Positions 37,938-56,357 of a DNA stretch of 64,000 nucleotides are shown here, in pieces. The stretch is from positions 1-64,000 of IMG/VR virus record IMGVR_UViG_3300048588_000476. One strand, 5' to 3'. The stretch comes from a virus. Numbering within the stretch: the stretch's first letter is position 1; the number at the start of each line of letters is the position of its first letter. The position numbers and the translations under genes are program-made. Below the pieces are notes generated by a model, which saw nothing but the letters and a program-made list of their open reading frames with translations, was not told where the DNA came from and searched no databases.

Positions 37938-38792
37938 TTACTTGACCGCGGCTTTGGCGAATTCCTCGAACGCGCCATCAAAATCGTTCGGGTCCGCCGC
38001 CGTCGTCGGCGCAGTTCTTCGGGATGGCACCGCCTTGAGTCGCTCGGCCGCTTTGTTGGCTGCGGGGGGTGCTGCTGGTGACGCAGAATTTACCACAGTG
38101 CCAGCCGGTTTCAAGCCCTTTGCTTCCTTGTACATCGAAATAAGGTCCGAGACCTCTTCCGCCGTGCCCTCGTCCACCACCGTCTGGAACGCTTTCTTGC
38201 GAGCCGGAGACTGTTCGCCCACCCACGCGATCACGTCGTCGTAGACCGCGTCGTAGTCCGCATGCGCTGCTGTGATGGCGGTCATGTGCTCGTCGACATC
38301 TGCCGTCTCCAGCCGCGAGCGCAAATCCACGATGGTGTCCTGCAGCGGCTTCACGTACGCCTGCACCTGCCCGAACACGTAGTTCAGCAGCCTGTAATTA
38401 TCCGCCTTGCGCCGCACCTCTTCCGCCGCTGCAATCTCCGGCCAATCCTTGAGGTAGCCATCCACCATCTCCCGCTCAGCGTCGGACAGCGCCAGCTCGG
38501 TCGGTGTGGGTTCCGGCGTGGGCTCGGGGGTCGGCTCCGGTGTCGGCTCCGGCGTTGCTGCCTTGCGCAACTCTTCCCGGAACGCCTTCAGCTCGTCAGC
38601 AAACGACGTCTCTGTGGGCTCGGGCGTAGGTTCCGGGGTCGGCTCCGGTGTCGGCTCGGGCGTGGGCTCCGGTGTCGGCTCGGGCGTGGGCTCCGGTGTC
38701 GGCTCGGGCGCACTGGCCTCGTTGAATGCTGCGTCGAATTGCTCGTCCGCCGTCAGTTCGGGTGCCGGAGCTGCGTCAAGTTTCGGGTCCAT
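37938..38792 (-). CDS. Scaffold-like protein with Pro-Thr-Pro-Glu repeats
   Basis: 284 residues, acidic. Two tracts of E-P-T-P repeats (about residues 29-61 and 80-97) surround a short helix (F-A-D-E-L-K-A-F-R-E-E-L). The rest is helical (about 100-250) with a C-terminal acidic/aromatic segment (F-D-G-A-F-E-E-F-A-K-A). Position directly upstream of the capsid gene and overall character fit a scaffolding protein. The repeats probably form a stiff extended rod. Encoded by 12-bp or longer DNA repeats. Confidence 0.7.
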   Translation of the reverse strand: MDPKLDAAPAPELTADEQFDAAFNEASAPEPTPEPTPEPTPEPTPEPTPEPTPEPTPEPTETSFADELKAFREELRKAATPEPTPEPTPEPTPEPTPTELALSDAEREMVDGYLKDWPEIAAAEEVRRKADNYRLLNYVFGQVQAYVKPLQDTIVDLRSRLETADVDEHMTAITAAHADYDAVYDDVIAWVGEQSPARKKAFQTVVDEGTAEEVSDLISMYKEAKGLKPAGTVVNSASPAAPPAANKAAERLKAVPSRRTAPTTAADPNDFDGAFEEFAKAAVK

Positions 38793-45846: not shown

Positions 45847-48183
45847 CTACCGTAGGGCATACAGATTCGGGAAGCGAGGGGGCTTGAAGCCGCTGTTGGT
45901 CCGCTTCAGGTTGCGGTCGGTCTGGTTCCTGCAATGCTTCGCCAGATACTGCACCGCGTCGGCGGGGTGGCTGTACTGGTTCTTGTCCGGCTCCGCTTTC
46001 TCCAACCCGCTCTTGGGAACAGTATACCGGTAGCCGCCCTCCAGTGCACGAATTGTGACCTTGCAGCTGGGGTCGATCAACAACGCCGGACCCACCGTGG
46101 TGAGGTTCGTCATGTAGTGCTCAACCGCCGCCAGTCGGGGCGGGAGGGTGTTGTTGGTGTCAAAGCGCACGTCGAAGTGCTTCCGGTACTCGTCCACCAC
46201 CGTGCGCTCGTCCGACTGTGCACGGGTGTTCGCCGCCGGGTCCGCGGCCACCTGCACACGGTAGCCGGGGTATTTCGCCCGCAGCAACGGCCTCAGCCGC
46301 TCCGCAATGACCCTTGAGGCCCCCATATTCTGGGTAATCACCTCGTCGTAGACCAACAGCCGACCGTGCATGTCCTCCTGCCCGATGACCACTGCACCGT
46401 GCTGCACCCCCGGGTCCACGCCAAGAACGAGAGGCAGGTACGGATTCGCCCGCAACGGGCTAGGCGACACGTGGTAGAGCCTGCGAAACATGGGGAATAC
46501 CGGCTGCCCGTCGAGGCTGTGCCCCCACTGGCACATGATGAACTGCTTCACCCACTCGTCCGATTTGCCTTCCTTCAACGAGGTGTAATACGCCGCTTTA
46601 CCCGGCAGATTGTCGATGTTTTCTGCATCTGGGCTGTCCCCCGCCGGCTGTATGAACAGCCGCGTGTGCGACGCCAAGTCGTCCTCAATGAGGTATTTAT
46701 ACCACCAGCTGTCCTCGTTGCCCGGGTTGGACGACCCCCACATGCCCCAGTTTGTTGCACCGCCATGGATGGCCGGCGGGTACCGTCCTGCCCGCGCTGC
46801 AATGGCCTCCACCACCTCTTTGGCGATGGTCACGAACTCGTCCAAGATCACGAACGTCACTTCGAGGGAGAGCACCCGTGCCACGTCGTCCGCCGTGTCG
46901 AGGGCTCGAAACAGCACCTCGCACTCGATGTCGCCAAACTTCAGCACGAATGTCTTGTCGGTGGCCCGCCACGTCCCCGCCACGCCGTCTTGGAACCAAT
47001 ACAACCATGACGGAATCGTCGTGTCCCGCAGCTGCGGAAACGTGTTCCGCACCACCACTGCTTTGCTGCGACGTATGCCGTCGATCGGACTGCGGGCCTG
47101 CAGCTGGGCCATGTAGATCAACTTGAAGAAGATGCCTGTCGTCTTCCCGCTATTCCCTGTGACAAACACGCGATTGTTGTGCCGCACCACAAAAAACCCG
47201 CTGGGCACCACGAAGCAATACTTTCGTCCGTCTGTAGAGCGTACCCGGGAAATTTGTGTTTCTGCGCGCACCATCGCTCTGTTTTTGGCGTTGTCGCTGG
47301 TACGCACGTTGACTGTGTACCCCGGGTTCCAGTGCAGGTGTTCGAGGTATTTTTCTTGGTGAATTGTTGCACGGCGCCCTGTTGCATGCGCCGCATACTG
47401 CATGAAGTCCGCGCACGGTTTACTTGTCGTGCTGAACCGAATCTCGTCATGCTCGTGCAGCCCGTCCCAATGCGTCATTTCGTCGAGCACGATTTTCAGC
47501 TGTTCCGCAGACGCTCCGTACCACTCCGGGCCGTACGTCTTGCCCCGATACCCGTTCGGGGGGTCGTAGCGGAACACTGTCTCCGTCGGCCGCGCCGGGT
47601 ACGTGGTTTCGGTAAACGCCACGTTCATTCGGGCGAGCAACGCCCGCAGCCTCGCCTTCTTGCGCTCCTTCCGGAGGGTGACCGACACTTTCTGCCCCGC
47701 CCGAGGCACGTGCCCGTCGGCATGAAACATCACCGCGTAGCGAATTTCGTTCTCGGTCGCCGTGAACGTCTTTGTCGTTGTTGTGAAAGTTGTGGGTATT
47801 GTGCGCCTGCTAGGTGCCCGTTCCATCTCTGCAGCGGTGCACACCTTAAACCGACCTTGGTAGTCGTAGTACGGCACTCGGTGCTCTTCCGACAACGCCA
47901 TCTGCAGCGACCCGGAGTCGAACAAGATGAACTCGTCGCACGGGAGGTCAATATGGTCCGTAGGGTGCACGAACGTTGCCTGCCCGTCCGGCGTCCACTG
48001 CATTACCATATCCCCCGGCGTGTAGCTGTCCATGCGCCTCCACCCGGCGGGCGTCAGGAACTCTGTTTCCGCGGGCAGACATCCGACCGGGCCGATGATG
48101 AAGTCAAAGAAGAGCTGCCCGTCCAGCTTGTCGACTATGAAGTCCCGGACGGTCGGCGGCGGTGTGTAGTTGATTGCCGCCAT
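45847..48183 (-). CDS. terL: Large terminase subunit, interrupted by an intein in the Walker A motif
   Basis: 778 residues as translated, about 468 after splicing. The N-extein (34 residues) ends in G-P-V-G and the C-extein begins S-G-K-T, so splicing rebuilds the Walker A motif GPVGSGKT. The ATPase Walker B follows (F-V-I-L-D-E-F), and the C-terminal nuclease domain has V-D-P-G (first Asp) and later acidic residues (A-D-P). The enzyme translocates DNA into the prohead and cuts the concatemer. Unspliced protein cannot bind ATP, so packaging depends on splicing. Confidence 0.92.
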   Translation of the reverse strand: MAAINYTPPPTVRDFIVDKLDGQLFFDFIIGPVGCLPAETEFLTPAGWRRMDSYTPGDMVMQWTPDGQATFVHPTDHIDLPCDEFILFDSGSLQMALSEEHRVPYYDYQGRFKVCTAAEMERAPSRRTIPTTFTTTTKTFTATENEIRYAVMFHADGHVPRAGQKVSVTLRKERKKARLRALLARMNVAFTETTYPARPTETVFRYDPPNGYRGKTYGPEWYGASAEQLKIVLDEMTHWDGLHEHDEIRFSTTSKPCADFMQYAAHATGRRATIHQEKYLEHLHWNPGYTVNVRTSDNAKNRAMVRAETQISRVRSTDGRKYCFVVPSGFFVVRHNNRVFVTGNSGKTTGIFFKLIYMAQLQARSPIDGIRRSKAVVVRNTFPQLRDTTIPSWLYWFQDGVAGTWRATDKTFVLKFGDIECEVLFRALDTADDVARVLSLEVTFVILDEFVTIAKEVVEAIAARAGRYPPAIHGGATNWGMWGSSNPGNEDSWWYKYLIEDDLASHTRLFIQPAGDSPDAENIDNLPGKAAYYTSLKEGKSDEWVKQFIMCQWGHSLDGQPVFPMFRRLYHVSPSPLRANPYLPLVLGVDPGVQHGAVVIGQEDMHGRLLVYDEVITQNMGASRVIAERLRPLLRAKYPGYRVQVAADPAANTRAQSDERTVVDEYRKHFDVRFDTNNTLPPRLAAVEHYMTNLTTVGPALLIDPSCKVTIRALEGGYRYTVPKSGLEKAEPDKNQYSHPADAVQYLAKHCRNQTDRNLKRTNSGFKPPRFPNLYALR
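47152..48081 (-). other. Intein with LAGLIDADG-type homing endonuclease, inside TerL
   Basis: 310 residues (TerL residues 35-344). It starts with C-L-P-A-E-T (N-terminal nucleophile Cys) and ends V-F-V-T-G-N with Ser as the next residue. The penultimate residue is Gly, not the usual His. The central part has two LAGLIDADG-like helices: A-V-M-F-H-A-D-G and L-D-E-M-T-H-W-D-G, each with a catalytic Asp, plus the F-S-T-T-S-K motif common in intein endonucleases. So it is a full-size, potentially homing intein placed in the most conserved part of TerL. Confidence 0.9.
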
Positions 48184-48184
48184 G

Positions 48185-48307
48185 TTATGCCACGACCGTG
48201 CTCGGCCCTACCGCGCTGTCTTCGACAGCAGGGCCTCCGCGCGGAGGGGCTGGCACCGCAGGTGCCGTGGGAGCCCCGAGCACGGTCGTAGGAAATTGCG
48301 GGCGCAT
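48185..48307 (-). CDS. 40-residue Pro/Ala-rich ORF encoded mostly by the cloverleaf element
   Basis: Starts at ATG 48307, which shares a base with the preceding stop (TAATG), and ends at TAA just before the TerL start. Almost all codons lie inside the 103-bp element (48190-48292); the peptide reads P-T-T-V-L-G-A-P-T-A near the start and G-P-S-T-V-V-A at the end. It may be a true small protein, or only translation across a structural DNA/RNA element that couples terS to terL. Confidence 0.4.
   Translation of the reverse strand: MRPQFPTTVLGAPTAPAVPAPPRGGPAVEDSAVGPSTVVA
48190..48292. repeat. 103-bp cloverleaf element, copy 1
   Basis: Ends pair as CACGACCGTGCTCGG with CCGAGCACGGTCGT; inside are three hairpins: GCTGTC-ttc-GACAGC, the palindrome CCTCCGCGCGGAGG, and GGCACC-gca-GGTGCC. 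Together they form a four-way cloverleaf. The copy at 49071-49173 is a near-identical inverse. Lies just upstream of TerL. Confidence 0.8.
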
Positions 48308-48573
48308 TACACCCCAGCCTTGGTGATGCCGCCGTACGTCATGGGGCCGTGGCTGTGGCCGAGCGACGCCAGCCGCCGAATCTGTGCTTCCAGCGTTCGA
48401 ACGCGGTCTTCCAGCGCCGATACCCGGGCCTCCCACACGCGGTCGGCAGAGGGCGTGTCAGGGCACCACGGGGCGGGGTACGTGGGGTAGTGGGATTCGT
48501 GCAGGGCTCCGCACGCAGGAGCCGGCGCCGAAGGCGCCGTGGGGGCGACGAGTACGGTCGTGGGATGGTTCAT
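48307..48573 (-). CDS. Small coiled-coil protein between terS and terL
   Basis: 88 residues from ATG 48573, overlapping the terS stop by ATGA. The first ~20 residues (M-N-H-P-T-T-V-L-V-A-P-T-A) are encoded by a half-copy of the cloverleaf element and resemble the starts of the two element-encoded ORFs. Residues about 45-68 (V-S-A-L-E-D-R-V-R-T-L-E-A-Q-I-R-R-L) are a clear coiled coil, then a Gly/His tail. Possibly a small packaging accessory or a fused element-plus-domain; unknown. Confidence 0.6.
   Translation of the reverse strand: MNHPTTVLVAPTAPSAPAPACGALHESHYPTYPAPWCPDTPSADRVWEARVSALEDRVRTLEAQIRRLASLGHSHGPMTYGGITKAGV
48505..48564. repeat. Partial cloverleaf element (half-copy)
   Basis: One arm of the element: GTACGGTCGTGG at one end, GGCGCC-gaa-GGCGCC as inner hairpin and GGCTCCGCACGCAGGAGCC as the next. 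Encodes the N-terminus of the coiled-coil protein. More diverged than the two full copies. Confidence 0.6.
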
Positions 48574-49055
48574 TCGCCCTCCAGCTGGGCAAGCGGGTTG
48601 ATGGTGATGGTCATGGGGTCCGATGCACCTGTCTTGGGTGCCGGTGGGGCAAGGTTGATGTTGATGCTGAACCCGTTGCCTGCCGCTTGTGTGGACGCCG
48701 GTCCCTTGCCTGCACTGTCGAACCCGGCCACCCGCGCGGTGAATTTGATCAAGTCTGCCCGTACCGCCGGGGGTATGGCGGTGTCTTGGATCATGTTGTA
48801 CGACGTCTGCAGCAGCGCCTCCGCTTGCATCTGTGCCTTGACCCGGTACGAGAACCCTTCTTCCTGTGCCTGCTTTACCGCCTCTTTGACCGCCTGCTTG
48901 AACGCATCGTTGTTCTTCAGATTTGTCCACGTTTCCTCGTCGATGCCGTATGCATCCAGCAGCTCAGGCAGCGGGGAGATGCGCAGGGCCATCTCGACCG
49001 GCAGTGTAGCCGGCCAGCCGATGGTAGCGGGGTCGATAGTCAAGTCGGTTACCAC
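48570..49055 (-). CDS. terS: Putative small terminase subunit
   Basis: 161 residues from GTG 49055, with AGGAG seven bases upstream; the longer in-frame ORF runs into the cloverleaf element and is not favoured. Contains helices (L-K-N-N-D-A-F-K-Q-A-V-K-E-A-V-K-Q-A; A-Q-M-Q-A-E-A-L-L-Q-T-S-Y) and A-I-P-P-A-V-R-A-D-L-I-K-F-T-A-R-V-A-G, a pattern known from small terminase-like phage proteins. Located directly upstream of TerL in the late operon. Role: DNA recognition for packaging. Flanked on both sides by inverted copies of the element. Confidence 0.72.
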   Translation of the reverse strand: MVTDLTIDPATIGWPATLPVEMALRISPLPELLDAYGIDEETWTNLKNNDAFKQAVKEAVKQAQEEGFSYRVKAQMQAEALLQTSYNMIQDTAIPPAVRADLIKFTARVAGFDSAGKGPASTQAAGNGFSININLAPPAPKTGASDPMTITINPLAQLEGE

Positions 49056-49065
49056 AAACGTGCTC

Positions 49066-49182
49066 CTATGCCACGACCGTGCTCGGGGCTTTCCCGGCAC
49101 CTGCGGTGCCAGCCCCTCCGCGCGGAGGCCCTGCTGTCGAAGACAGCGCGGTAGGGCCGAGCACGGTCGTAGGATGGTTCAT
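49066..49182 (-). CDS. 38-residue ORF inside the second cloverleaf element
   Basis: ATG 49182 overlaps the previous stop by ATGA and TAG ends at 49066, 11 bases before the terS start. The peptide opens M-N-H-P-T-T-V-L-G-P-T-A and ends A-P-S-T-V-V-A, echoing the ORF at 48185-48307. Either a coupled leader peptide for terS or a by-product of the repeated element. The recurring frame and ends argue for some selection on coding. Confidence 0.4.
   Translation of the reverse strand: MNHPTTVLGPTALSSTAGPPRGGAGTAGAGKAPSTVVA
49071..49173. repeat. 103-bp cloverleaf element, copy 2 (inverted)
   Basis: Near-identical reverse complement of 48190-48292; the differences are few and mainly in one bulge (GTGGG versus GGAAA-type). 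The same three hairpins are present. With copy 1 it brackets terS and the coiled-coil gene. Confidence 0.8.
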
Positions 49183-49325
49183 GGGTTCTTCTTCGCAAGG
49201 CGCCACGCCCGCATGACTGCAGCGTAGCACTGCTTGCAATACGCAGCCAGCCCATCCCGCTCGTTTCGGTTACGAGAGAAGTCGCTGGAAGGCTTGTTGG
49301 TAGAACATTTTGGGCAACGTTTCAT
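49179..49325 (-). CDS. Small zinc-finger protein at the head of the late operon
   Basis: 48 residues. C-P-K-C-S-T-N-K-P at the N-terminus and A-Y-C-K-Q-C-Y later give a four-Cys zinc site, with a basic C-terminus (R-L-A-K-K-N-P). This is a common phage mini-protein pattern, C-x2-C-x-x-x-K-P ... D-G-L ... Y-C-K-x-C. It is the first gene after the late promoter, so it may bind DNA in packaging or in late control. Below the length cutoff of typical ORF scans. Confidence 0.7.
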   Translation of the reverse strand: MKRCPKCSTNKPSSDFSRNRNERDGLAAYCKQCYAAVMRAWRLAKKNP

Positions 49326-50069: not shown

Positions 50070-50181
50070 CACCCACCCACACTGCCTGTATGGGGTGTGG
50101 GTATCGACCTAGTAGTGCCTCCCCTCGTGCGTGCCATATGCGAACGGTACGATGGATGCATACAATGATGTATCAACAAGG

Positions 50182-50197
50182 GTTGATAGCTATCCAC
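50182..50197. promoter_or_regulatory. 16-bp palindrome variant overlapping a promoter
   Basis: GTTGATAGCTATCCAC, with TTGATA serving as the -35 box. Just upstream lies TATCAAC-aagg-GTTGATA, the same half-sites in opposite order. A protein bound here would block the promoter. Confidence 0.65.
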
Positions 50198-50260: not shown

Positions 50261-50836
50261 ATGGCTACCAAGCAAAAGGCGGTGAAGGCGTCCAAGGAAC
50301 TGACGACGGCACAGCGTAAGGATTTGCGCGCTATCGCCGAAGAAATGCAAAGGGCGTTTGCCACCATTCAGGCCGGTATCAGTGCGGATGGAATGTGCAT
50401 GCTTTGTCTGGACGCGGCGCGAACGAAGGGAATCCCGACCGTTCAGGTGGTGCACGCTGCTCTCGATTCGATGCCCGACAAGGGAATGCCGAGCAGCCTG
50501 AAAACGCGGAAAGCGAAACTGTTCGCCATTGCTAACGCGGTGGATGCGGGAACGACGATCCCGCACGGCAAAGACAAGACTCCGACTAGCGTCGGGTCGC
50601 TGCTCAAGCGCTCCGACGGCACGGGAGCAAGTCTGCAAGGCATGTACTCTGCGATCCGTGCCTTGTCGATGAAGGCGAAGGGCGTGCAACAGCGATTCGA
50701 TGAATTGATCGAACGGATCGCCAAGCAGTTGAGCAACGACCGTGAATTGCTCTCGGCATTCCTTGCGGATGGAACGATCGAAACGATCGAGGCGAGCGCG
50801 GAGGATATGATCAAGGAAAAAACGACCAAGAAGTAA
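50261..50836 (+). CDS. Early protein of unknown function
   Basis: 191 residues, ATG 50261 with TAGGAG upstream. Lys-rich N-terminus, helical throughout (L-R-A-I-A-E-E-M-Q-R-A-F-A-T-I; F-D-E-L-I-E-R-I-A-K-Q-L). Cys pair M-C-M-L-C-L. It has its own regulated promoter and a strong terminator directly after, so it is a single-gene unit, possibly a regulator or abundant DNA-binding protein. Not recognised. Confidence 0.65.
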   Translation: MATKQKAVKASKELTTAQRKDLRAIAEEMQRAFATIQAGISADGMCMLCLDAARTKGIPTVQVVHAALDSMPDKGMPSSLKTRKAKLFAIANAVDAGTTIPHGKDKTPTSVGSLLKRSDGTGASLQGMYSAIRALSMKAKGVQQRFDELIERIAKQLSNDRELLSAFLADGTIETIEASAEDMIKEKTTKK

Positions 50837-50893: not shown

Positions 50894-51064
50894 CCACGCC
50901 CGTGCTCGCCTCTATCTCGCCGCTGACGCGGCAGAGGCTGCGCGCGGAGGGTGGGGCGGACTGCGTCCTAGTAGTCGCTCGCCCCGCGCGTGGCGTTGTG
51001 ATAGGATACGCACGGAGGCTCTGGTGTCGTAGACACCGAGGTAGAGCCGAGTACGTTCGTAGTA
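50894..51064. repeat. Diverged relative of the cloverleaf element (171 bp)
   Basis: Outer arms CCACGCCCGTGCTCG and GAGTACGTTCGTAG; inner hairpins GGTGTC-gta-GACACC and a GCCGC-type pair. It looks like the elements around terS but with a longer centre. The order (terminator, element, palindrome, gene) separates the 50261 unit from the 51093 gene. Confidence 0.6.
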
Positions 51065-53245: not shown

Positions 53246-53318
53246 TTTCTTCGGCGCCTCTGACCGTTCCCCTAACCGTATGACCTTTCGCAGTACCGGT
53301 ATGGAGGCGCCGAAGAAA
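53246..53318. repeat. 15-bp perfect inverted repeat with 43-base loop
   Basis: TTTCTTCGGCGCCTC (53246-53260) and its reverse complement (53304-53318). In RNA it would form a stable stem 43 bases before the first array gene; possible attenuator. Confidence 0.6.
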
Positions 53319-53336
53319 GCTGTTTCTATTCTTCCC

Positions 53337-53352
53337 GTTGATAGCTATCAAC
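53337..53352. promoter_or_regulatory. 16-bp palindrome opening the zinc-ribbon array
   Basis: Perfect copy ending 8 bases before ATG 53361 of the first array gene, in the place where a ribosome site would be expected. Confidence 0.75.
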
Positions 53353-53360
53353 CAAACGCC

Positions 53361-53573
53361 ATGAAAATAATCCGAGCTGAACGCTGGGACGAACCGGAAG
53401 ACGCCAAGTGCGTCGTGTGCGACATGCCTACAATAGGCTGGGCGCAGACAGACCAGATGTCCGGCGTCCGACGGGTCGTCCTGCCTTGCGGGTGCTGTAA
53501 TCAACTTGACACCCCGCATGCGATACCCGACGACATGATCGCCGTGGCTCTGCTGATGTTGGAGGAGACATGA
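53361..53573 (+). CDS. Array zinc-ribbon protein 1 (type A)
   Basis: 70 residues. C17/C20 knuckle (C-V-V-C), second knuckle L-P-C-G-C-C (C43, C45), C-terminal helix I-P-D-D-M-I-A-V-A-L-L-M-L-E-E. ATG 53361 is chosen over an upstream in-frame ATG (53280) because it follows the palindrome and matches the length of the other members. GGAGGA in the last codons serves the next gene (ATGA overlap). Function unknown for the whole family. Confidence 0.7.
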   Translation: MKIIRAERWDEPEDAKCVVCDMPTIGWAQTDQMSGVRRVVLPCGCCNQLDTPHAIPDDMIAVALLMLEET

Positions 53574-53761
53574 ACAAAATAGCGGCAGCATGGCGCCCTG
53601 TGCACCCCCAAACGTGCGTCGAATGTGGAGCCCCCGTTGAGGGGTATGTGTTTATGGAGGGAAGACCGCACGGGGGCACGTTGCCGTGTGGGTGCAGTTT
53701 CTCCGGCAAGTTGACGCCCGAAGAGATAGCACTAGCCTTGCTCATGCTGGAGGGTGAATGA
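53570..53761 (+). CDS. Array zinc-ribbon protein 2 (type A)
   Basis: 63 residues. Knuckles C16-V-E-C19 and L-P-C40-G-C42; C-terminus L-T-P-E-E-I-A-L-A-L-L-M-L-E-G, the clearest form of the family's tail. ATGA overlaps at both ends. Confidence 0.72.
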   Translation: MNKIAAAWRPVHPQTCVECGAPVEGYVFMEGRPHGGTLPCGCSFSGKLTPEEIALALLMLEGE

Positions 53762-53979
53762 GACGCGCGGCATCACTCCGGTACATGCACGGGTACAACG
53801 GCCCCAACTGCTGCCCGGCATGCGACTCCCCCGTCACTGGGTTTGTGCTCGACGGCAGAGCACGGCACATATACGTCGTGCCATGCGGGCACCGCTCGAC
53901 GAATCCAGAGTGGTGCTCGAAGGGACAGCGCCAGCTGACGCCATTCGAGATAGCGTTGATGTTATTGGAGGCAGAATGA
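53758..53979 (+). CDS. Array zinc-ribbon protein 3 (type A)
   Basis: 73 residues. C19-P-A-C22 (preceded by another Cys) and V-P-C43-G-H45; an extra Cys at 53. C-terminus L-T-P-F-E-I-A-L-M-L-L-E-A-E. ATGA-coupled on both sides. Confidence 0.72.
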   Translation: MRRAASLRYMHGYNGPNCCPACDSPVTGFVLDGRARHIYVVPCGHRSTNPEWCSKGQRQLTPFEIALMLLEAE

Positions 53980-54188
53980 AACCAAGACCGATCCTCAAGG
54001 TGGAGCAGAGCCCCGGCCCCACTAGCTTTTGTGGACTGTGCAACCGTAATCGTGCATGGTACGCAGAAGCAGAGGACTGCGGGAATACGTACCGCTTCGA
54101 CCTCCCGTGCGGGCACTCGTGGGGAGTACAGGTGCACCTCACGCCCGAAGAGCTGGCCCTAGCCTTGTTGATGATGGAGGGTGCATGA
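53976..54188 (+). CDS. Array zinc-ribbon protein 4 (type A)
   Basis: 70 residues. C19-G-L-C22, L-P-C45-G-H47, tail L-T-P-E-E-L-A-L-A-L-L-M-M-E-G-A. The final 48 bases are identical to those of member 8 (54985-55032), pointing to recent duplication or gene conversion. ATGA start is used rather than the longer in-frame ORF. Confidence 0.72.
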   Translation: MKPRPILKVEQSPGPTSFCGLCNRNRAWYAEAEDCGNTYRFDLPCGHSWGVQVHLTPEELALALLMMEGA

Positions 54189-54391
54189 AACAAATCACAA
54201 GCGTGCATCGGTACTCAATGACCGGCGTGCATTGCGAGGTATGCCACGAGCCGAGTAACGGATGGGCGTGCGTCGACCAGATGCACTTTTTCGCCATGCC
54301 GTGCGGGCACCAGCGGACCACCAAGCACGTACTCACCCCGCGTCTGCATGCGATAGCCTTGCTCATGTACGAAGGGGCCGAACGTGACTAG
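54185..54391 (+). CDS. Array zinc-ribbon protein 5 (type A)
   Basis: 68 residues. C17-E-V-C20, M-P-C40-G-H42; tail L-T-P-R-L-H-A-I-A-L-L-M-Y-E-G followed by A-E-R-D. ATGA with member 4; member 6 starts at a GTG eight bases before its stop. Confidence 0.7.
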   Translation: MKQITSVHRYSMTGVHCEVCHEPSNGWACVDQMHFFAMPCGHQRTTKHVLTPRLHAIALLMYEGAERD

Positions 54392-54593
54392 AAAATTCCA
54401 TATGCGCCAAACGATGGCGTCCGTGCAAGGGCAGCCGGCTAAGTGCCCTCAATGCCGTCGTTTTGTCACGCACTTCCTGTGGACTAATGCAAGCACTACT
54501 GGGTTCGCGCTGCCATGTGGGCACCATCCGGAACCTATTCAGCTCAGCCCCGAGGACTTGGCCCTAGCCTTGTTGATGATGGAGACGGTGTAA
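54384..54593 (+). CDS. Array zinc-ribbon protein 6 (type A)
   Basis: 69 residues from GTG 54384. C21-P-Q-C24, L-P-C45-G-H47, tail L-S-P-E-D-L-A-L-A-L-L-M-M-E-T-V. Shares one base with the next start (TAATG). Confidence 0.7.
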   Translation: MTRKFHMRQTMASVQGQPAKCPQCRRFVTHFLWTNASTTGFALPCGHHPEPIQLSPEDLALALLMMETV

Positions 54594-54826
54594 TGCCTAC
54601 CCTAGACATAAACGCCGAACTAGACTTCTTCCCCGCTGACGAGCGCACAGGGCAAGCGTGCCCCCTGTGCAACGAGGTAGTGCGCGGATGGGCATCGGCA
54701 ACGAGGTATGTCGGGCACCCGACGCTGTTCTGCCTCCCGTGCGGGTGCGCCCCGTTCCAGTTCACCGACTGGTCGATGACGCCTGCACTGCATGCACTGA
54801 TGCTCCTACGAATGGAGGGCGTATGA
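54593..54826 (+). CDS. Array zinc-ribbon protein 7 (type A)
   Basis: 77 residues. C23-P-L-C26, L-P-C50-G-C52 with an extra Cys at 47; tail M-T-P-A-L-H-A-L-M-L-L-R-M-E-G. ATGA into member 8. Confidence 0.7.
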   Translation: MPTLDINAELDFFPADERTGQACPLCNEVVRGWASATRYVGHPTLFCLPCGCAPFQFTDWSMTPALHALMLLRMEGV

Positions 54827-55032
54827 GACGAATCACGACGGTCGAACCTAACGGCGCAGGTTTGCAAATGTGCACCAAGTGCCGCGAGCGTACCCCGTAC
54901 GTTGCGCGGGTGGATGCCCGACACCATAGCTACTACAACTTCGACCTCCCATGCGGGCACTCGTGGAGCGACGCGCCGCCGCTGACGCCCGAAGAGCTGG
55001 CCCTAGCCTTGTTGATGATGGAGGGTGCATGA
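54823..55032 (+). CDS. Array zinc-ribbon protein 8 (type A)
   Basis: 69 residues. C17-T-K-C20, L-P-C44-G-H46-S-W, tail L-T-P-E-E-L-A-L-A-L-L-M-M-E-G-A. The second half is nearly the same as member 4 at DNA level (48 identical bases at the end, and one mismatch in 27 around the P-C-G-H codons). Confidence 0.72.
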   Translation: MRRITTVEPNGAGLQMCTKCRERTPYVARVDARHHSYYNFDLPCGHSWSDAPPLTPEELALALLMMEGA

Positions 55033-55244
55033 GAGTCCACAAGCGGACCAGCCTGGAGTGGTGCGACGACTGCAACGCCAGCACTACTTTCTGGGTTGAC
55101 CTCGCGCCGCATCTGCCGGGCATTGAAGAGTGCTACTCGTTGCCATGCGGGTGCTACCTCGGACGCCACGCGGGGCATCTGCCTCGACCCCCGCTCTCTA
55201 CAGAGCAGGCAGCCCTTGCTCTTCTCTTGGCGGAGGACGCATGA
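55029..55244 (+). CDS. Array zinc-ribbon protein 9 (type A)
   Basis: 71 residues. C12-D-D-C15, L-P-C40-G-C42, tail L-S-T-E-Q-A-A-L-A-L-L-L-A-E-D-A. ATGA-coupled at both ends; the GGAGGA at the end serves member 10. Confidence 0.7.
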   Translation: MRVHKRTSLEWCDDCNASTTFWVDLAPHLPGIEECYSLPCGCYLGRHAGHLPRPPLSTEQAALALLLAEDA

Positions 55245-55480
55245 GACGTATTCAGTCAGCCTACACGAATAAGGGGCTACCGTACCGGTGCTCCACGTGC
55301 GACGCCCTCGTCTTCGGACGCGCAGAGGTGCATGAGGAGTCCTTCCAGCTCGCCCAGCTCATGCTTCCGCACAACCTTCCATGCGGGTGCGTGTGGAACA
55401 CATACAAACATATGTCGTCCGGGGCGTTGGGGACCGCCGAGCTGGCCGCGGCGATGTTGATAGCTATCAACGAGGACTAG
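55241..55480 (+). CDS. Array zinc-ribbon protein 10 (type A), tail written by the palindrome
   Basis: 79 residues. C17-S-T-C20, L-P-C48-G-C50. The C-terminal helix ends A-A-M-L-I-A-I-N-E-D, and L-I-A-I-N is the reading of the perfect palindrome at 55456-55471. So the operator-like DNA has replaced the usual L-L-M-x-E tail. Four bases separate it from member 11, the first junction in the array without overlap. Confidence 0.7.
   Translation: MRRIQSAYTNKGLPYRCSTCDALVFGRAEVHEESFQLAQLMLPHNLPCGCVWNTYKHMSSGALGTAELAAAMLIAINED
55456..55471. promoter_or_regulatory. 16-bp palindrome at the array's first block boundary
   Basis: Perfect copy, inside the last codons of member 10 and 13 bases before ATG 55485 of member 11. 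Confidence 0.75.
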
Positions 55481-55484
55481 GGCC

Positions 55485-55697
55485 ATGCACAGACGCGTAG
55501 ATTTGTTCGTGCCGTTGGATGGCGCAGGTACGAAATGTCCTCACTGCTTCAGTAGGCCAGAAGGGTATGTATGGTTGGAAGTCAACAACCTGTCATACCC
55601 AATGCTGGTGCCGTGCGGGCATGCGGCAGAGGGCCAGCACCTCGAACATCTTACGGACGCCGAGATTGTGTTTGCTGCCTTGCTGCGAGACAAATGA
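55485..55697 (+). CDS. Array zinc-ribbon protein 11 (type A)
   Basis: 70 residues. C18-P-H-C21, V-P-C44-G-H46, tail L-T-D-A-E-I-V-F-A-A-L-L-R-D-K (less conserved). First gene of the second block, started after the palindrome; ATGA into member 12. Confidence 0.7.
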   Translation: MHRRVDLFVPLDGAGTKCPHCFSRPEGYVWLEVNNLSYPMLVPCGHAAEGQHLEHLTDAEIVFAALLRDK

Positions 55698-55927
55698 TGC
55701 CAGTGCGAACAGATATCCCCGGGGCAATTGTGTATATGTACGAGCCCGCAGCGCCCCCAGCACCCCCGATATGCCGCACGTGCTGCACTCGCACGTCGGG
55801 GTGGGTATATGTGGACCCAGATTATTACCATCTGCCATGCGGGCACGGGGCGCCGCCTCGATCCGGGGAAAAATCCCTCGACCCGGCGGTGCACGCACTG
55901 GCACTGTTGATAGTGGAGGACGCATGA
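55694..55927 (+). CDS. Array zinc-ribbon protein 12 (type A)
   Basis: 77 residues from ATG 55694 (second ATG at 55697). A Pro-rich insertion (P-P-A-P-P) precedes C27-R-T-C30; then L-P-C49-G-H51 and tail L-D-P-A-V-H-A-L-A-L-L-I-V-E-D-A. ATGA-coupled. Confidence 0.7.
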   Translation: MMPVRTDIPGAIVYMYEPAAPPAPPICRTCCTRTSGWVYVDPDYYHLPCGHGAPPRSGEKSLDPAVHALALLIVEDA

Positions 55928-56133
55928 GAGTGTATCGACGTGCGAGTGCAGCACGGTGCCATAAATGTGGGCAGCCGTCGGACTACTGGGTCGACGTAGC
56001 AGCGTACATAGACCCGGATTCAACCCGCATGTGGGACGGGTACTACGACCTGCCGTGTGGGTGTGCGTGGGATGGCGGCGCCCCTCTGCCTGCCGACCAG
56101 ATTGCTATTGCCCTGCTGATGGGAGACCCATGA
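55924..56133 (+). CDS. Array zinc-ribbon protein 13 (type A)
   Basis: 69 residues. C12-H-K-C15, L-P-C45-G-C47, tail L-P-A-D-Q-I-A-I-A-L-L-M-G-D-P. GGAGA in the last codons; ATGA with member 14. Confidence 0.7.
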   Translation: MRVYRRASAARCHKCGQPSDYWVDVAAYIDPDSTRMWDGYYDLPCGCAWDGGAPLPADQIAIALLMGDP

Positions 56134-56357
56134 GAAAAATCGTGCGGCCCCCAGAGCCTCACTGGAAAACGCAAAACGCATGCTCCATGTGCTATGAGTC
56201 CGTGGAGCACGTGGTGTGGGTCGCTGAACCCGGCACCATGTTTGGCAACATCTATGCGCTTCCGTGCGGGCACCTGATAGAATATTTGGGCAAAATGCCC
56301 AACGACTTGACGACAGACGAGATAGCGCTGGCAATGCTGATGCTGGAGGTGTCGTGA
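56130..56357 (+). CDS. Array zinc-ribbon protein 14 (type A)
   Basis: 75 residues. C18-S-M-C21, L-P-C46-G-H48, tail L-T-T-D-E-I-A-L-A-M-L-M-L-E-V-S. ATGA from member 13; member 15 starts at GTG in a GTGA overlap. Confidence 0.7.
   Translation: MRKIVRPPEPHWKTQNACSMCYESVEHVVWVAEPGTMFGNIYALPCGHLIEYLGKMPNDLTTDEIALAMLMLEVS

Follow-up and report, generated by a model that had tools for sequence, protein, structure and literature searches.

The 64,000-nt window analyzed here belongs to a virus record of 65,844 bases, and its genes for a large terminase (TerL), a head-tail adaptor/portal-like protein, a major head protein, DNA polymerase A and a helicase identify the genome as that of a tailed phage. 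The packaging operon lies on the minus strand, with a promoter-like site immediately upstream of its gene zn (49179–49325), which codes for a 48-amino-acid CxxC protein kept upstream of terS in relatives. The small terminase gene, terS (48570–49055), is identified by position and belongs to phrog_36773, a family of unknown function. It is followed by geneC (48307–48573), a coiled-coil ORF, and by terL (45847–48183), whose nearest named relative, at 48% over the TerL domain, is that of Pseudomonas phage Rollin. An intein interrupts TerL and splits the Walker A motif as GPVGC / N-SGKTT; its LAGLIDADG_3 match is sub-threshold, and the intein portion resembles (35%) a stretch of phage primase/helicases. 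The two TerL parts adjoin in most relatives, which therefore lack the intein. Single-sequence searches of viral contigs returned no relatives of terS or of the gene at 50261. Elsewhere in the window, about a dozen small paralogous genes on the plus strand (53280–59013) carry CxxC motifs, LPCGH and a common end like LTPEELALALLMMEG; among them, a 20-bp perfect inverted repeat surrounds a long stable hairpin (55779–55955, −94.7 kcal/mol). Separately, the ORF at 37938–38792 contains a Pro-Glu-Pro-Thr run encoded by 12-bp direct repeats (38488–38723).

Two intact copies of a 103-bp cloverleaf element lie within the operon, element A at 49071–49173 and element B at 48190–48292 (both minus strand). 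The initial annotation called them near-identical reverse complements, and the description holds: they form an inverted repeat pair that is 95% complementary, and the minus strand of A differs from the plus strand of B at only five positions after a one-base register shift. Both also fold with the matching ends and three internal hairpins first ascribed to them. The 14-bp arms (CCTACGACCGTGCTC / GAGCACGGTCGTGG in A) enclose hairpin 1 (6 bp, a 5-nt 5' bulge, 6 bp and a 3-nt loop), a small central hairpin 2 (CTCCGCGCGGAG) and hairpin 3, which is the mirror image of hairpin 1 because the common plan places the bulge on the outer side. The predicted folds reach −68 to −71 kcal/mol (z-scores of −4.8 to −7.0), and none of 200 shuffles folded equally well. 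Among non-overlapping 110-nt folds in the window, the top three in stability are those of A, B and the region of a diverged copy, D, the last of which takes in the terminator adjoining D. A count of perfect inverted arms that are 14 bp or longer and lie 40–110 nt apart gives three in the window versus 0.03 expected in Markov-shuffled sequence. The proposed likeness to a tRNA is limited to the four-way outline, because ARAGORN finds no tRNA in the element and Rfam yields no relevant family match at E values up to 1.

Of the five differences between A and B, three fall within a single 5-nt hairpin bulge and two at a single wobble pair, where they are both halves of one end pair (T..G); none breaks a Watson-Crick stem pair. 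Such avoidance of the stems by chance would be unlikely were the five differences independent, but the three neighboring changes may represent one event. Hairpin 1 of A matches hairpin 3 of B in reverse complement at 32 of 32 positions, and hairpin 1 of B matches hairpin 3 of A in the same way at 29 of 32, the bulge excepted. On the minus strand, however, CCTACG is read at the 5' end and CGTGGCATA at the 3' end of both copies, with a matching polarity in D (CTACGA ... CGTGG). Thus, the end motifs of A, B and D share one polarity, yet the core of B is reversed.

The phage holds two further, decayed copies, also read on the minus strand, so that the set grades from the nearly identical A and B to the diverged D and the truncated C. 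Element C (48507–48564), annotated initially as a diverged relative at 48505, is indeed related but is a half copy comprising the 5' arm and hairpins 1 and 2, and scores weakly in the covariance search (E of 0.54–1.1). It lies in frame at the N-terminus of geneC, and 7 of its 13 changes from B are at third codon positions (hand count on printed sequences), fitting, without proving, translation of C. Element D (50894–51063), the other proposed relative, is a diverged copy that keeps hairpins 1 and 3 and carries a longer stretch in place of the central hairpin; in alignment, it follows the hairpin 1/3 plan using different letters. Six of its nine changes from A, counted in the same manner, fall in first codon positions, and D is therefore not preserved as protein. 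In core orientation, C resembles B and D resembles A.

We also observed two other repeats, each with a copy in or beside D. A 29-nt repeat (79%) with CCTAGTAGT occurs at 50105–50133 and at 50964–50992, the latter within the expanded middle of D, and is possibly part of a promoter. The 16-bp palindrome GTTGATAGCTATCAAC occurs 12 times on the plus strand at up to two mismatches (0.01 expected), at positions 964, 6390, 12287, 50182, 51067, 52078, 52317, 52782, 53337, 55456, 58176 and 62199. Several copies stand directly before gene starts, one abuts D and the copy at 50182 provides a TTGATA −35-like box, and the palindrome appears operator-like.

Compensatory changes in the stems, named at the outset as support for an RNA, were found. 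Across A, B and a hand-trimmed D, 13 of 41 pairs were altered on both sides and 95.9% of the cells pair, in a comparison of three sequences only in which most of the difference between A and B is the core flip. None of 500 shuffles reached this number of two-sided changes, and slid controls gave 0–3 while cell pairing dropped to 34–47%. The fold is therefore conserved beyond the sequence, and the element retains its four-way structure while its letters drift. The outer arms show no compensation, with three mismatches there in D. The reverse pattern, a conserved protein without stem pairing, did not emerge: the peptide read from A has no similar protein in phages, and it is the pairing that the copies conserve.

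The order on the minus strand is zn, A, terS, C (inside geneC), B and terL, which places A, C and B at the successive junctions zn/terS, terS/geneC and geneC/terL. A creates a 38-amino-acid ORF (MNHPTTVLGP...STVVA, 49066–49182, minus strand) that begins at an ATGA overlapping the upstream stop and ends beside the terS ribosome site (TAGGAG, then GTG). Similarly, B creates a 40-amino-acid ORF (MRPQFPTTVLGA...STVVA, 48185–48307, minus strand) that begins at a TAATG overlap and ends one base ahead of the terL ATG. Removal of the elements in silico restores the neighboring genes. Deletion of A and one flanking CAT joins the flanks into an uninterrupted terS reading MNHRSTFVVTDLTIDPATIGW, with terS in frame (MNHRSTFVVTDLTIDP...) from an ATG overlapping the zn stop, and once the 103 bp of B are deleted, an ATG that overlaps the geneC stop opens terL (MRPQFHNMAAINYTP...) in frame. 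This is the picture expected of insertion at a coupled start, but two in-frame sites would by themselves arise by chance one time in nine.

CAT is directly 5' of A (49174–49176) and directly 3' of it (49068–49070, both minus strand), a possible 3-bp target duplication, but the 3' copy may be element sequence instead because CATA also follows B. The ends of B and D have no direct repeat, and C is without one end. Upstream of the element, ATGAACCAT is common to A and C, which suggests that the element may have been copied together with its flank. The D flank resembles those of the other copies only in ATCAACTAT versus ATGAACCAT, inside the operator-like palindrome.

A search with TerL recovered 80 related loci at about 50–61% identity. 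In relatives carrying both terS and terL, zn, terS and terL lie on one strand without the element, and zn and terS commonly overlap directly at ATGA, with the terS ATG within the zn end. The terS match lies within 35 nt of terL in 19 of 65 measurable relatives, and in others unrelated small ORFs occupy the gap. Two relatives (L033 and L049) have a short coiled-coil ORF comparable, at weak similarity, to geneC without the element-encoded N-terminus. As for empty sites, the support for mobility anticipated initially, the relatives offer element-free junctions but, at 50–61% identity, are too distant to give a base-level site. These loci also bear on the idea that A and B are the ends of a cassette, which is unsupported because the relatives have these genes, identically ordered, but no elements, and C lies inside the supposed cassette.

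Copies were also sought in other phages and host genomes, as initially proposed, and none was found in collections from which the records nearest to the window may be absent. The element was not detected by BLAST in 50,697 phage records or 72,556 plasmids, where matches were short, GC-rich and due to chance; plasmid matches L109–L111 were discarded for having no such fold. Viral contigs scanned with three exact-match patterns, which diverged copies could escape, yielded no comparable element, and none of 10 arm-pattern matches there had an inverted partner. An exact-match two-arm scan of 84,980 species genomes, which could miss diverged ends, also found no element, its sole match being a chance one that falls in a histidine-kinase gene and lacks the hairpin core. 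A covariance model over 33 related records found no copy (best outside match, E of 0.2), and a descriptor of the bulged hairpin and arms recovered only A and B over all loci; other inverted repeats in the relatives were rejected as lacking this architecture. Over the whole 65.8-kb record, no copy falls outside the 2.9 kb that contains all four (P of 3e-4 for random placement). No transposase was noted among the part of the ORFs scanned, and the exact arm and two-arm patterns revealed no autonomous IS with the same terminal repeats in the viral contigs or the 84,980 species genomes.

The reading we favor, with confidence that is about even, is that the repeats are a lineage-private, non-autonomous palindromic insertion element that works like a MITE or a Rickettsia palindromic element (RPE), and whose copies decayed after insertion. 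This is the most economical explanation because young (A and B) and old (C and D) copies coexist, relatives lack them and their removal restores terS and terL. In the proposed sequence of events, a unit of about 103 bp, with 14-bp terminal inverted repeats around three hairpins, would have inserted in this phage lineage and then degenerated. A, C and B would have landed in stop/start junctions of the terminase operon, where inserts may be tolerated, and each would add a short open frame keeping ribosomes moving over the junction. The mini-ORFs are, by this account, presumably translated. The right half of C would have disappeared and what is left of it would now form the geneC N-terminus, and D may be an old copy at a promoter/terminator region. 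The copies probably moved by transposition, driven in trans by an enzyme of the host or one since lost, and not through local copying. Of the possibilities first listed, a MITE/REP-like element is thus the best supported, from the evidence of the empty-site type and the in-frame restoration, while copies outside the phage and a transposase were not found.

The presence of the element at all three operon junctions makes a functional structured RNA a serious rival, though a distinctly less probable one. The cloverleaf would act in the terminase mRNA through processing (RNase III-like), stability or translational coupling, and could set the terS : geneC : terL ratio. The very stable fold, the stems kept with two-sided changes, the sparing of Watson-Crick stem pairs by all five A/B differences, the mini-ORFs whose ends adjoin the ribosome site of terS and the start of terL, and the promoter-like site close upstream of zn are all consistent with such a role. 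However, every relative with the same operon lacks the element, half of C is lost, and D, whose end polarity is on the opposite strand from the neighboring genes, is not part of the operon. Furthermore, palindromes can stay matched through templated repair, which could account for the matching stems without selection.

Local copying without a transposase is a real alternative because the copies cluster and share flanks, albeit one to which we assign a rather low probability. One palindrome would have arisen here and then multiplied within 3 kb as palindromes provoked template switching or gene conversion, a route that would also flip the core of B. Consistent with this, sequence outside the element is common to A and C (ATGAACCAT) and, past the 3' end, to A and B (CATA), the core is flipped while the ends are fixed, and the phage has further local duplications. 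Against it, three separate junctions were struck almost exactly at stop/start sites, and D has little flank in common with the other copies. If the core flip in B stems from strand folding, it offers a concrete test of palindrome spread without an enzyme of its own.

In parvovirus terminal repeats, small palindromes flip and flop, and it is conceivable, if quite improbable, that this element is similarly moved or maintained as a single-stranded hairpin and that its core flips between fixed ends. Such behavior would make it a new kind of hairpin element carried by phages, with a core orientation that reflects how a folded strand was processed in the past. Least probable, and very unlikely, is a packaging (cos/pac) site or an inversion switch for the terminase module, despite the adjoining terS and the inverted A and B: terS and terL share a strand in all relatives carrying both, without the element, there are four copies, decayed ones included, and inversion would set terS antisense to its own operon.

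Bacteria commonly carry very small palindromic elements, and to our knowledge these are rarely described in tailed phages. The element described here fills successive junctions of an essential packaging operon, where it adds mini-cistrons and, in C, may have partly become coding. Prokaryotic MITEs are shorter than 500 bp and have terminal inverted repeats of 4–30 bp (PMC10969869), a range that includes the 103 bp and 14-bp arms of this element. Like QMITE and Chunjie, for example, it combines short size, terminal inverted repeats and a stable RNA fold with intact and degenerate copies and insertion at gene boundaries. In contrast to these MITEs, it is GC-rich, phage-located and present as only four clustered copies, without a related IS. 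Young MITE copies have flanking direct repeats from target duplication (PMC10969869), whereas here this applies to one copy at most. We therefore describe it as working like a MITE rather than being one, since no related IS was found and a direct repeat flanks one copy only.

RPEs, of about 150 bp, occur in many unrelated bacterial genes (PMC10969869). The phage element resembles them as a palindrome with an open frame that is fused in frame (C) or read as a short ORF, but D changes mostly at first codon positions and its peptide is not conserved. REP elements and their dimers are similar in their paired hairpins at extragenic sites, orientation tags and TAG in the terminus. However, GTAG/CGTC REPs measure 20–40 bp and carry a GTAG or CGTC tag that stays unpaired (PMC3733652), whereas this element is one 103-bp four-way fold with paired ends and falls outside the class. 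In cluster K mycobacteriophages, the SAS and ESAS repeats lie upstream of many starts, with ESAS common across the phage cluster (PMC3203893). As here, these repeats belong to phages and include imperfect inverted repeats (17 bp) immediately before start codons, but they lack a multi-hairpin core. The 13-bp SAS motif GGGATAGGAGCCC is not enriched in our sequence (13 matches versus 18 expected from shuffles), and a resemblance at 49060 was discarded for this reason. The ultra-small MPME mobile elements of mycobacteriophages are 439 bp long, and their precise pre-integration sites came from near-identical phages (PMC3029335); like the proposed mobile element here, they are very small and sit near the 5' end of a gene.
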